Position numbers and translations under genes: made by a program. Positions 12,565-52,501 of a stretch of DNA of 64,000 bases are shown here, in pieces. Each line of letters begins with the position of its first letter. Within the stretch, counting starts at the first letter, position 1. The notes beneath the pieces were generated by a model, which searched no databases, was not told where the DNA came from, and worked only from the letters and a program-made list of their open reading frames with translations. Origin of the DNA: Plectonema radiosum NIES-515. GTDB taxonomy: Bacteria > Cyanobacteriota > Cyanobacteriia > Cyanobacteriales > Nostocaceae. Location: positions 1-64,000 of the forward strand of contig NZ_JAOWRF010000064.1 in NCBI RefSeq assembly GCF_025753815.1, written 5' to 3'.

Positions 12565-13031
12565 TAGGGAAGGGGTTTTGGGTTAGGTCTGACCCCTCAT
12601 TTGACCGAAAAACCCTCGTAAAGACGTTCCACCGGAACGTCTCTACAATCGTGTGGAATGACGAAAAATCCTTGCTCCCCGGACCTCGTAGGGAAGGTGT
12701 TTTGGGTTAGGTCTGACCCCTCATTTGACCGAAAAACCCTGGTAAAGACGTTCCACCGGAACGTCTCTACAATCGTGTGGAATGACGAAAAATCCTTGCT
12801 CCCCGGACCTCGTAGGGAAGGTGTTTTGGGTTAGGTCTGACCCCTCATTTGACCGAAAAACCCTCGTAAAGACGTTCCACCGGAACGTCTCTACAATCGT
12901 GTGGAATGACGAAAAATCCTTGCTCCCCGGACCTCCTAGGGAAGGGGTTGGGGGTTAGGTTTGACCCCTCATTTGAACAAAAAACCCTCGTAAAGACGTG
13001 ACCATGGAACGTCTCTACAATCGTGTGGAAT
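12565..13031. repeat. 124-bp direct tandem repeat, almost four copies, each with a palindrome
   Basis: Copies begin at 12565, 12689, 12813 and 12937, a constant 124-bp period. Each has TAGGGAAGG..., GGTTAGGTCTGACCCC, a GTAAAGACGTTCC/GGAACGTCTCTAC palindrome and AATCGTGTGGAATGACG. The first three are nearly identical; the fourth is diverged (its palindrome core is GTGACCATGGAAC). The array lies between tpsB and tpsA2 and could act on transcript structure in the operon, but no gene is seen in it. Confidence 0.9.
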
Positions 13032-35144: not shown

Positions 35145-37826
35145 ATGTCGCAGTTTTCTTTTGAAGCCGAGAATAATCACCACAGATCTTTTGAGTTACC
35201 AGGTGCCAAACCACACTATAACCCCGATCGCCCAGGACAGGTAGAGCATATTTATCTAGACCTCAGCTTGGATATTCCGAACCAAAGTTACCAAGGTACT
35301 TGTACCATTCGCTTATTACCGATTTGCAATGGTGTCGATCGCTTGACTTTGGATGCGGTAAATTTGAACATTAAGTCTGTCGAAGTCAACCAGGTGTCAT
35401 CCAAGTTCGACTGCGATGGAGAACAGCTTTTTATTCAGCTTTCTCAACCGACGCAAGTTGGAGTAAAATTGCTTCTGGCGATCGCCTACTCTGTGGAAAA
35501 ACCCCAACGCGGTATTTACTTTATTCAACCTGACAAACATTACCCTGACAAACCTATTCAAGTCTGGACTCAAGGAGAAGACGAAGATTCACGTTTCTGG
35601 TTTCCCTGCTTTGACTATCCAGGACAACTGTCTTCGAGTGAAATCAAAGTCCGAGTACCCAAAAAGTTTGTAGCTATTTCCAACGGCGAACTGATTGACA
35701 CCACAGAAGACGGCGATGATAAAATATACCACTGGTTACAGCAACAAGTTCATCCTACCTATTTAATGACTTTGGCTGTAGGCAACTTTGCGGCAATTTG
35801 CGATGAGTGGCAAGGCAAACCCGTCACCTACTATGTAGAAAAGGGACGGGAGGAAGATGCTAAACGTAGTATGGGCAAGACTCCGCGCATGATGGAGTTT
35901 TTAAGCGAAAAATATGGTTATACTTATGCTTTCCCCAACTACGATCAAGTATGCGTTGATGATTTTATCTTTGGTGGGATGGAAAACACATCCACCACGC
36001 TGTTAACTGATAGATGTTTGCTGGATGAACGCGCTGCATTAGATAACCGCAATACCGAAAGTTTAGTTGTCCACGAACTCGCACATCAATGGTTTGGCGA
36101 TTTGGTGGTGATAAAACATTGGTCACACGCTTGGGTGAAGGAGGGAATGGCTTCTTATTCTGAGGTGATGTGGACAGAACATGAATATGGGGACCAAGAA
36201 GCTGCATATTATCGGTTACTGGAAGCACGTAGTTATTTAGCTGAAGATGCATCCCGTTACCGGCGTCCGATGGTGACACACGTTTACCGAGAAGCGATCG
36301 AACTTTTTGATCGCCACATATATCAAAAAGGTTCTTGTGTTTATCACATGATTCGCGCAGAATTAGGCGAAGAACTATTTTGGCAAGCAATTGGGACGTT
36401 TGTCCGGGATAATGCCCACAAAACTGTCGAAACAATCGACTTACTAAGGGCGATTGAAAAAGCTACTGGACGCAATCTGACGTTTTTGTTTGACCAGTAT
36501 GTTTATCGCGGTGGTCATCCTGATTTTAAAGTCGCTTACTCTTGGGATCGAGATGCAAAGCTGGCGAAAGTCACAGTTACCCAAAATCAATTTACCACAG
36601 AAAGTAATGGTAATAATTTATTTGATTTGAAAATCCCCATCGGTTTTGGTTATACGTCAGAAGAAGTTAGGAGTGAGGAGTCAGGTAGAGACGTTCCGGC
36701 GGAACGTCTTTACGGAGATTCAACGATAAGTCCTACAGACGCGATTAATCGCGTCTCTACTCCTAACTTGAAAATCTTTACAGTGCGTGTAAATGAACGC
36801 GAACAAAGCTTTTATTTTCCACTTACAGAGAAACCAAACTTTATTAGCTTCGATGTCGGGAACAATTATCTGAAAACTGTGTCTCTAGAGTATCCGGTAT
36901 CGGAGTTAAAAGCACAGATGGAATTTGATCCAAATCCTATCTCCCGTATATATGCAGCCGAAGCTTTGGCGAAAAAAGGAGGTTTAGAAGCGGTAAATGC
37001 TTTGTCTGCTGCGTTACAAAATGACTCCTTTTGGGGTGTACGTGTGGAAGTAGCAAAGAAACTAGCTGAGATTAGGCTAGATCAGGCAATCGTAGCCTTA
37101 GTTGTTGGATTAAAAGATGCAAATTCTTTCGTGCGGCGATCTGTGGCGGAAGCACTTGGTACAATCAAGACGAATGAAAGCTTTAAGGCTTTAAAACAGC
37201 TTTTACAGGATGGCGATCCTAGTTATTATGTAGAGGCAATGGCAGCTTGCTCAATTGGTGCGATCGCTTCTGCTTCCTTGGATGACAAACCCAAGGAAGA
37301 AAAGGTACTAAAGCTGCTAAAATCAGTTTTGACAGAAAAAGCAGGTTGGAATGAAGTTGTTCGCAGTGGTGCTCTAGCTGGTTTAGCTGAACTCAAAACT
37401 TCTGAAGCCGCTTTAAATTTAATTCTCGAATACACCAAAATCGGTATACCGCAACCCTTGCGTTTATCGGCGATTCGTGCATTGGGAAAAATTTCACTCG
37501 CTCAAAGTGCCCCCAACTTAGAAGCGATTTTAAATAGATTGGCAACGCTAGCTAAAGAAAGCTTCTTTTTAACGCAAGTTGCAGTGGTTGTGGCACTGGG
37601 ACAAATGGAAACTCCCAAAGCAATCTCGATTTTGCGATCGCTTGCCGATCAAACAGCTGATGGACGTGTCCGTCGTTATGCTGAAGAAGAAATGACCAAA
37701 GTAGGTCTTCATATTGGCACAGAAGGAACTCTGCGTCAATTACGCTCAGAACTCGACCAAGTAAAACAACAAAATCAAGAACTCAAAAGCCGCTTGGAAA
37801 ATTTAGAAGCCAAATCCAAGCTGTAA
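35145..37826 (+). CDS. M1-family zinc aminopeptidase with C-terminal HEAT repeats and an inserted palindromic element
   Basis: 893 residues. The N-terminal beta-sandwich domain is followed by the catalytic domain with GGMENTSTT (substrate N-terminus recognition) and the zinc motif H310ELAH314QWFGD, with the downstream Glu in KEGMASY. The C-terminal third (about 590-860) consists of HEAT-like repeats (AAEALAKKGGLEAVNALSAAL, RRSVAEALGTI). The protein ends in a short coiled coil. Residues 508-541 are encoded by a 102-bp repeat insertion that keeps the frame. The chain continues normally after it (LKIFTVRVNEREQSFYFPL), so the enzyme is probably functional. The activity is removal of N-terminal residues from peptides; the location is presumably cytoplasmic because no signal peptide is seen. 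Confidence 0.92.
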   Translation: MSQFSFEAENNHHRSFELPGAKPHYNPDRPGQVEHIYLDLSLDIPNQSYQGTCTIRLLPICNGVDRLTLDAVNLNIKSVEVNQVSSKFDCDGEQLFIQLSQPTQVGVKLLLAIAYSVEKPQRGIYFIQPDKHYPDKPIQVWTQGEDEDSRFWFPCFDYPGQLSSSEIKVRVPKKFVAISNGELIDTTEDGDDKIYHWLQQQVHPTYLMTLAVGNFAAICDEWQGKPVTYYVEKGREEDAKRSMGKTPRMMEFLSEKYGYTYAFPNYDQVCVDDFIFGGMENTSTTLLTDRCLLDERAALDNRNTESLVVHELAHQWFGDLVVIKHWSHAWVKEGMASYSEVMWTEHEYGDQEAAYYRLLEARSYLAEDASRYRRPMVTHVYREAIELFDRHIYQKGSCVYHMIRAELGEELFWQAIGTFVRDNAHKTVETIDLLRAIEKATGRNLTFLFDQYVYRGGHPDFKVAYSWDRDAKLAKVTVTQNQFTTESNGNNLFDLKIPIGFGYTSEEVRSEESGRDVPAERLYGDSTISPTDAINRVSTPNLKIFTVRVNEREQSFYFPLTEKPNFISFDVGNNYLKTVSLEYPVSELKAQMEFDPNPISRIYAAEALAKKGGLEAVNALSAALQNDSFWGVRVEVAKKLAEIRLDQAIVALVVGLKDANSFVRRSVAEALGTIKTNESFKALKQLLQDGDPSYYVEAMAACSIGAIASASLDDKPKEEKVLKLLKSVLTEKAGWNEVVRSGALAGLAELKTSEAALNLILEYTKIGIPQPLRLSAIRALGKISLAQSAPNLEAILNRLATLAKESFFLTQVAVVVALGQMETPKAISILRSLADQTADGRVRRYAEEEMTKVGLHIGTEGTLRQLRSELDQVKQQNQELKSRLENLEAKSKL
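36666..36767. mobile_element. 102-bp double-palindrome element inserted in frame in the M1 peptidase gene
   Basis: It is bounded by the 9-bp inverted repeat GTTAGGAGT (36666-36674) and ACTCCTAAC (36759-36767). Inside are two palindromes of the dispersed family: 36685-36713, with core GTTCCGGCGGAAC, and 36734-36760, with core GCGATTAATCGC. The length is exactly 34 codons, and the element begins on a codon boundary. It encodes RDVPAERLY and related residues. Confidence 0.85.
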
Positions 37827-51902: not shown

Positions 51903-52501
51903 TCTAACGTCTCTATAGATGTTATTGGTGGTTGGTAAATCATACATATTGTAGAGACGTTCCACCGGAACGTCTCTTTGCCGGAACGTCTCTTTGCCGC
52001 TGCCAAATACCCCCTTGGCAACAGTAATGCTCAAATAGGTGTTTCGTAACTTTTAGGACTTACGCAAGTGAAAAATAATGTAGAGACGTAGCAGTGCTAC
52101 GTCTCTACAAAGGTTTTGGGCAACGCATATTTAATTTTCACTCCTATGTCTATTAGACCTCTCCGGAAAACAATGTAGAGACGCGAAATTTCGCGTCTCT
52201 TGGGGTTTGGATAACGCATATTTAATTTTCGGAGATGTCTATTAGACCTCTTGCAAAAGTCCTTCCTTTCCCTTCTTCTTTGCCACGAGTGCGACGAGTA
52301 CGTGAGACAAAAAATTATTTATGCAAGAGTCTATTGTACAATACCGTTGGTGTTAAACCCCAAATCCTCGTAGAGACGTAGCACATGCAACGTCTCTACA
52401 GGTCTAAAATCAGTACCAAAAATCCTTAACACCAACCGTATTGGTCTATTGTAGAGACGTTCCAACGGAACGTCTCTACGACGGTTGCCCTCGCTTATTC
52501 T
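51903..52501. repeat. Cluster of MITEs and GTAGAGAC-family palindromes
   Basis: The 600-bp gap holds palindromes at 51951-51978 (core GTTCCACCGGAAC), 52080-52108 (core GTAGCAGTGCTAC), 52370-52399 and 52451-52479 (core GTTCCAACGGAAC). A complete 88-bp MITE lies at 52154-52241 (ends TAGACCTCTCCGGA and GGAGATGTCTA; palindrome core GCGAAATTTCGC), and a half MITE ends at 52152. No gene is seen here. Confidence 0.85.

Follow-up and report, generated by a model that had tools for sequence, protein, structure and literature searches.

The window, the whole 64,000-nucleotide stretch of Plectonema radiosum NIES-515 DNA analyzed here, belongs to contig 399 in a genome of 6.59 Mb and encodes a predicted M1 family aminopeptidase, the one M1 gene of that genome (Table 1). 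Profile matches in the 893-residue frame were to Peptidase_M1 (PF01433, E 2e-57), PF17900 and HEAT repeats, and the invariant positions of the protein include HELAH; the nearest protein, at 93% identity, is that of Tolypothrix brevis. Within the gene lies a stretch composed, in order, of GTTAGGAGTGAGGAGTCAG, GTAGAGACGTTCCGGCGGAACGTCTTTAC, GGAGATTCAACGATAAGTC, CTACAGACGCGATTAATCGCGTCTCTAC and TCCTAAC, 102 nt in total, both ends of which fall on codon boundaries and which translates without a stop as VRSEESGRDVPAERLYGDSTISPTDAINRVSTPN. A first-pass annotation had described a palindrome-bearing, codon-bounded, stop-free sequence of 102 bp in this gene, and it was found where that annotation had placed it. 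In an AlphaFold model that is weak overall (mean pLDDT 57), the 34 codons form the tip, modeled as disordered, of a beta hairpin with strands at residues 495-503 and 541-549, and pLDDT falls below 50 across residues 505-540.

Table 1. Features of the M1 aminopeptidase gene (positions in the window) and other genes with palindromes in frame (positions in loci, L, of genomes, G).
Feature	Position	Strand	Remarks
M1 family aminopeptidase gene, predicted	35145..37826	+	Peptidase_M1, N-terminal domain and HEAT repeats; one copy; 893-aa frame unbroken
In-frame stretch made of repeats, residues 508-541 (34 codons)	36666..36767	+	Beta-hairpin loop (low-confidence model)
Heptamer-type stub (GTTAGGA/GTGAGGA), 19 nt	36666..36684	+	Missing from T. 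brevis (L001)
Palindrome A, GTAGAGACGTTCCGGCGGAACGTCTTTAC, 29 bp	36685..36713	.	100%-identical 29-bp copies at many genome places
Spacer, 19 nt	36714..36732	+	No second copy in genome
Palindrome B, CTACAGACGCGATTAATCGCGTCTCTAC, 28 bp	36733..36760	.	Intact GTAG end outward on minus strand
TCCTAAC, 7 nt; with preceding AC, ACTCCTAAC	36761..36767	+	Resembles relatives' loop sequence ACTCCTAATTT
SMC	L161:9615-13220 (G000:C16)		Two in-frame palindromes; same length as in 82 other genomes
GAF/PAS adenylate cyclase	L173:3510-6338; congeners L299, L300, L301		In-frame heptamer-palindrome array
Family 2 glycosyltransferase	L163:18926-19825; L291 in G002		Palindrome in loop
MalK-type ABC ATPase	L263:6891-8267; congeners L292, L294, L295		Long heptamer-derived in-frame insert after NIAFGLR

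Palindromes A and B form a head-head pair with their terminal GTAG tags outward: A starts with GTAG and B ends with CTAC, and copies elsewhere in the genome have the form GTAGAGAC...GTCTCTAC. This outward orientation, as in REP dimers, the inverted repeats formed by the 9-bp ends, and the intact reading frame are all compatible with a discrete palindromic transposable element of 102 bp, RPE- or MITE-like, that was inserted as one unit bounded by GTTAGGAGT/ACTCCTAAC, as the annotation had proposed. That idea is now largely refuted, and we regard it as highly improbable. A genome search with the whole stretch matched its full length only at the stretch itself, neither the unit nor the spacer has a second copy, and partial matches consist of one palindrome with at most ~20 nt of heptamer sequence. 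The sequence ACTCCTAAT occurs in a relative that has no palindromes. Because T. brevis carries both palindromes without the left 19 nt, another locus (L143) has ACTCCTAATTTAAA inside a short loop with no palindrome, and only the ~29-bp palindromes and the heptamers recur, the 102 nt are a nested composite rather than one unit, and the loop that holds them is filled in other lineages by heptamers. The proposed bounds are heptamer and loop sequence; the TCCTAAC end resembles the loop sequence of relatives rather than the end of an element.

The loop, which lies between IPIGFGY and FTVRV, is hypervariable in 79 Nostocales loci (window included), with very varied lengths that are mostly much shorter than in the window. 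Spirirestis, a close relative, has the short form IPIGFGYTSQSATETALSTFTVRV, the Hassallia loop is built of CCCCACT heptamers, many Nostoc loops carry GTTAGGAGT-type heptamers, and in other Nostocales GTTAGGA/CAGCACT-type heptamers occupy both this loop and the second of two sites in SMC that are described below. Congeners differ from the window across the entire loop, and the palindrome is present in T. brevis/G002 and missing from three close congeners (G001, G003 and G004) and Spirirestis (L021). An insertion of precisely 34 residues had been expected from alignment with orthologues; the alignment upheld the presence of extra sequence that most orthologues lack, but not the precision, since the loop is variable throughout and its contents are composite. 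By comparison with orthologues, the 102 nt are extra sequence in a hypervariable hairpin loop that is probably disordered. The variable loop length would also fit an old native segment of the protein that most orthologues have lost, but that account, like a palindrome that arose by chance, has a negligible probability and was already refuted by the identity of the DNA to dispersed repeats, including exact matches of 29 bp, and by a gain in Nostoc set against many empty alleles.

In two Nostoc genomes (L010 and L055), GTAGAGACGCGATTAATCGCGTCTGTAC is found within the heptamers of the M1 loop, while L006, L016, L028, L037, L046 and others have the same flanks and no GTAGAGACGCGATTAATCGCGTCTGTAC, a difference of exactly 39 nt, in frame. 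This is the clearest filled/empty pair, and it shows that the loop was entered in Nostoc independently of the window's lineage. The annotation had also pointed to the target-site pattern; among the candidates tested, clean filled/empty pairs were found only in the Nostoc M1 gene, all inside heptamer repeats, and therefore no target-site duplication is assignable. Since the insertion site in Nostoc is itself repetitive, a target duplication there is indistinguishable from a spare heptamer.

The palindromes belong to a family that is dispersed across the genome. With up to two mismatches allowed, GTAGAGACGTTN8AACGTCT matched the 6.59-Mb genome 346 times, both strands counted, and its reversed control 0 times; for GTAGAGACGCGATTNATCGCGTCT the corresponding figures were 48 and 0, where in such both-strand counts a palindrome often scores once per strand. 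About 16 more palindromes were found in the intergenic DNA of the window, in agreement with the annotation. A scan of genes covered 1.42 Mb in stretches, most of them taken from contigs on which palindromes had already been located, a sample that biases palindrome density upward and affects the ratio inside and outside ORFs less. It yielded 364 palindromes, 20 of them inside ORFs of at least 200 aa and 344 not; such ORFs cover 70% of the sample, corresponding to a depletion of palindromes in ORFs of ~12-fold. The short stem-loops, high copy number and mostly intergenic location are those of GTAG REPs, with stems of up to 14 bp and loops of 0-2 nt that extend slightly beyond the published GTAG REP stem range of 5-13 bp. 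Heptamer pairs adjoin 4.1% of the palindromes and 1.7% of random intergenic points, a ~2.5-fold enrichment in what is a minority context.

Tandem repetition was also observed in the window. An intergenic array at 12565-13031 has 3.8 copies of a 124-bp unit, each with a GTAAAGACGTTCC-type palindrome, and short tandem arrays of half-palindromes, AAGACGTTCCAGTCGTC and CCGGAACGTCTCTTTG, are found at 825-888 and 51965-51999; these half-palindrome arrays suggest tandem growth from palindrome arms.

Presence in frame in unrelated genes, a trait of the Rickettsia palindromic elements (RPEs), was found for this family as well. The annotation had anticipated repeats in further genes, and in the 1.42 Mb scanned at least seven others carry palindromes in frame, encoding SMC, an adenylate cyclase, a CHAT protein, an nSTAND1 protein, GHL10, a family 2 glycosyltransferase (GT2) and an ABC ATPase. 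Both stop-free frames are in use among the intact in-frame palindromes. Copy number or presence varies between congeners in the cyclase, GHL10, GT2, CHAT and ABC ATPase genes. The cyclase array ranges from one to about nine units across species, with a nested form in L299; one copy of this tandem array satisfies the scan criterion and the remaining copies are diverged. This genome and G002 share the GHL10 palindrome, in place of which G001 and G003 have other repeats. The glycosyltransferase palindrome is an insertion common to the genus and two neighboring genera and missing further out, the TPR-CHAT protein has a palindrome in some homologues only, and in a comparison of four congeners the ABC ATPase loop has one in this genome alone, the congeners having heptamer-type repeats. 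A search of congeners found no clear orthologues of the caspase-nSTAND1 protein (L245). Short ORFs with palindrome arrays (for example L241, L248 and L256) were set aside as probably spurious, and a match at L176, in a gene resembling a phycobilisome linker, was a false positive. In the glycosyltransferase of G002, an 8-residue half-unit, VASLQKPD, is repeated five times in tandem directly before the conserved LLTDADI motif.

The main claim of the annotation, that an intact cyanobacterial enzyme gene has acquired dispersed palindromic repeats in frame, analogous to the Rickettsia palindromic elements, holds up. Our reading, to which we assign a probability of roughly 0.78, is that the M1 loop is a permissive site filled by resident repeats, with palindromes copied in and kept if they are in frame and free of stops. 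A permissive surface loop of M1 would have been filled repeatedly in Nostocales with heptamers and with GTAGAGAC-type palindromes of the resident family, and alleles would persist only where the added length was a multiple of three and contained no stop, as in the frame in which GTAG reads TAG. The lineage that includes this genome and T. brevis would have taken up two palindromes in the loop, and these would have supplied most of the 34 extra codons; the resulting 34-residue peptide may be tolerated rather than useful. The palindromes could have arrived by a hairpin-dependent copying process in which resident copies served through template switching or as donors in ectopic conversion; a transposase acting in trans may have contributed.

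Transposition driven by a RAYT (Y1/HUH transposase), in which a TnpA_REP mobilizes the palindromes, as GTAG REPs, in trans, is a different route to the same loop. The genome has 14 strong PF01797 matches, and the GTAG tag, short stem-loops, head-head pairs and intragenic units are as given for GTAG REPs in the main text of one survey (PMC3733652), but we consider this route unlikely. At the 18 Y1_Tnp loci examined, no GTAGAGAC palindrome lies directly beside the gene, although at three loci one was seen toward the outer end of the ~1.5-kb flank, and no transposase or reverse transcriptase was tied to the repeats; a trans-acting RAYT is made less likely by the fact that no Y1 transposase gene directly adjoins the palindromes. 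The repeats in SMC, moreover, are present without a change of length, which simple insertion does not give.

The SMC gene adds a second kind of evidence. Across 83 genomes, no gap around either SMC site exceeds 108 nt, and the palindrome therefore occupies coding sequence of constant length; recent insertion of the SMC palindromes was ruled out on this basis. Five genera have different perfect 14-bp palindromes at the first site, five types in all, with cores CGATATATCG, TTACATGTAA, TTGCATGCAA, TTCCATGGAA and CGAAATTTCG framed by GTAGAGACG...CGTCTCTAC; the five types come from 83 related sequences and are not a count of independent events. The remaining genera have sequence of equal length that is partly or fully non-palindromic. 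Pairing at this center averages 7.8 of 14, whereas the background level is 3.3, and 11 rows have at least 12 pairs there, a level reached at no other center. Four other genomes were tested (G113, G125, G110 and G075), and in each the core found in SMC ranks among the commonest of the dispersed cores listed for that genome; most of the copies listed for G113 have TTCCATGGAA, and the CGATATATCG core is found again at about a dozen other places in G000. At the second site, the palindrome of some genomes corresponds in many others to CAGCACT or similar heptamers; in G005, G007, G032, G130 and others, heptamers CAGCACTCAGCACTC lie on the palindrome's codons.

Two readings of the SMC sites are possible: resident copies may repeatedly overwrite the site, or an old palindrome may have been kept while both of its arms changed. 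Because the SMC cores match resident cores, the sequences appear to favor overwriting. We tentatively suggest, with somewhat less than even confidence, that Nostocaceae palindromes in coding sequence undergo concerted evolution with the dispersed ones of their genome, such that fixed codon positions in the SMC coiled coil and the glycosyltransferase loop are repeatedly rewritten to the locally abundant core, in SMC without change of length, and, through ectopic conversion or hairpin-templated copying, a non-coding family edits conserved proteins. An SMC stem that is perfect in several genera although its core has changed, each change on one arm being paired on the other, together with a pairing peak exactly at that center, might also be expected if selection kept genic palindromes for the peptide or for a hairpin in RNA or DNA, making them functional parts and not passengers. 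We think this improbable, as many genomes are stem-free at the same SMC site with length unchanged, most M1 orthologues have no palindromes, and cyclase copy number changes freely between congeners.

Several known repeat systems resemble this one in part. The small dispersed repeats (SDR) of Nostoc are reportedly very small, at 21-27 nt, often embedded in tandem heptamers and mutually nested; the repeats found here are near-perfect stems of 28-30 bp. The heptamer STRR sequences of heterocystous cyanobacteria also differ, in that here they lie in coding DNA and are joined or replaced by palindromes. Among Rickettsia palindromic elements, RPE-1, -4 and -6 are described in the main text of PMC3733652 as dispersed palindromic repeats in frame in unrelated genes, RPE-4 and -6 being CGTC repeats. 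The repeats reported here are likewise palindromic, dispersed and in frame in unrelated protein genes, but they are GTAG-tagged with no CGTC tag, form single ~29-bp stems in place of the long unit of RPEs, are partly nested with heptamers, and have a cyanobacterial host. Their likeness to GTAG REPs, as far as these are characterized in the main text of that survey, extends to the GTAG end, the short stem-loop, head-head pairs and a mostly intergenic location with a minority in frame in genes; the difference is that no RAYT gene adjoins them (18 Y1_Tnp loci). In-frame GTAG and CGTC REPs are known there from several bacteria, and the cyanobacterial GTAG families are GTAG-12, -15 and -16 (Di Nocera et al. 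2013, PMC3733652). The main text of PMC3733652 names no cyanobacterial intragenic case and no length-neutral occupation of SMC with lineage-specific cores.

In-frame REP-type repeats are thus already known, and the tracking of resident cores in SMC is the newest part of these observations. The SMC site makes it testable whether REP-like palindromes spread by insertion only or also overwrite similar sequence, by conversion or templated repair, and it bears on how great an influence these repeats have on the evolution of proteins. With filled and empty alleles in many relatives, the colonization of protein genes by repeats, best known from Rickettsia, extends to free-living cyanobacteria with large genomes.
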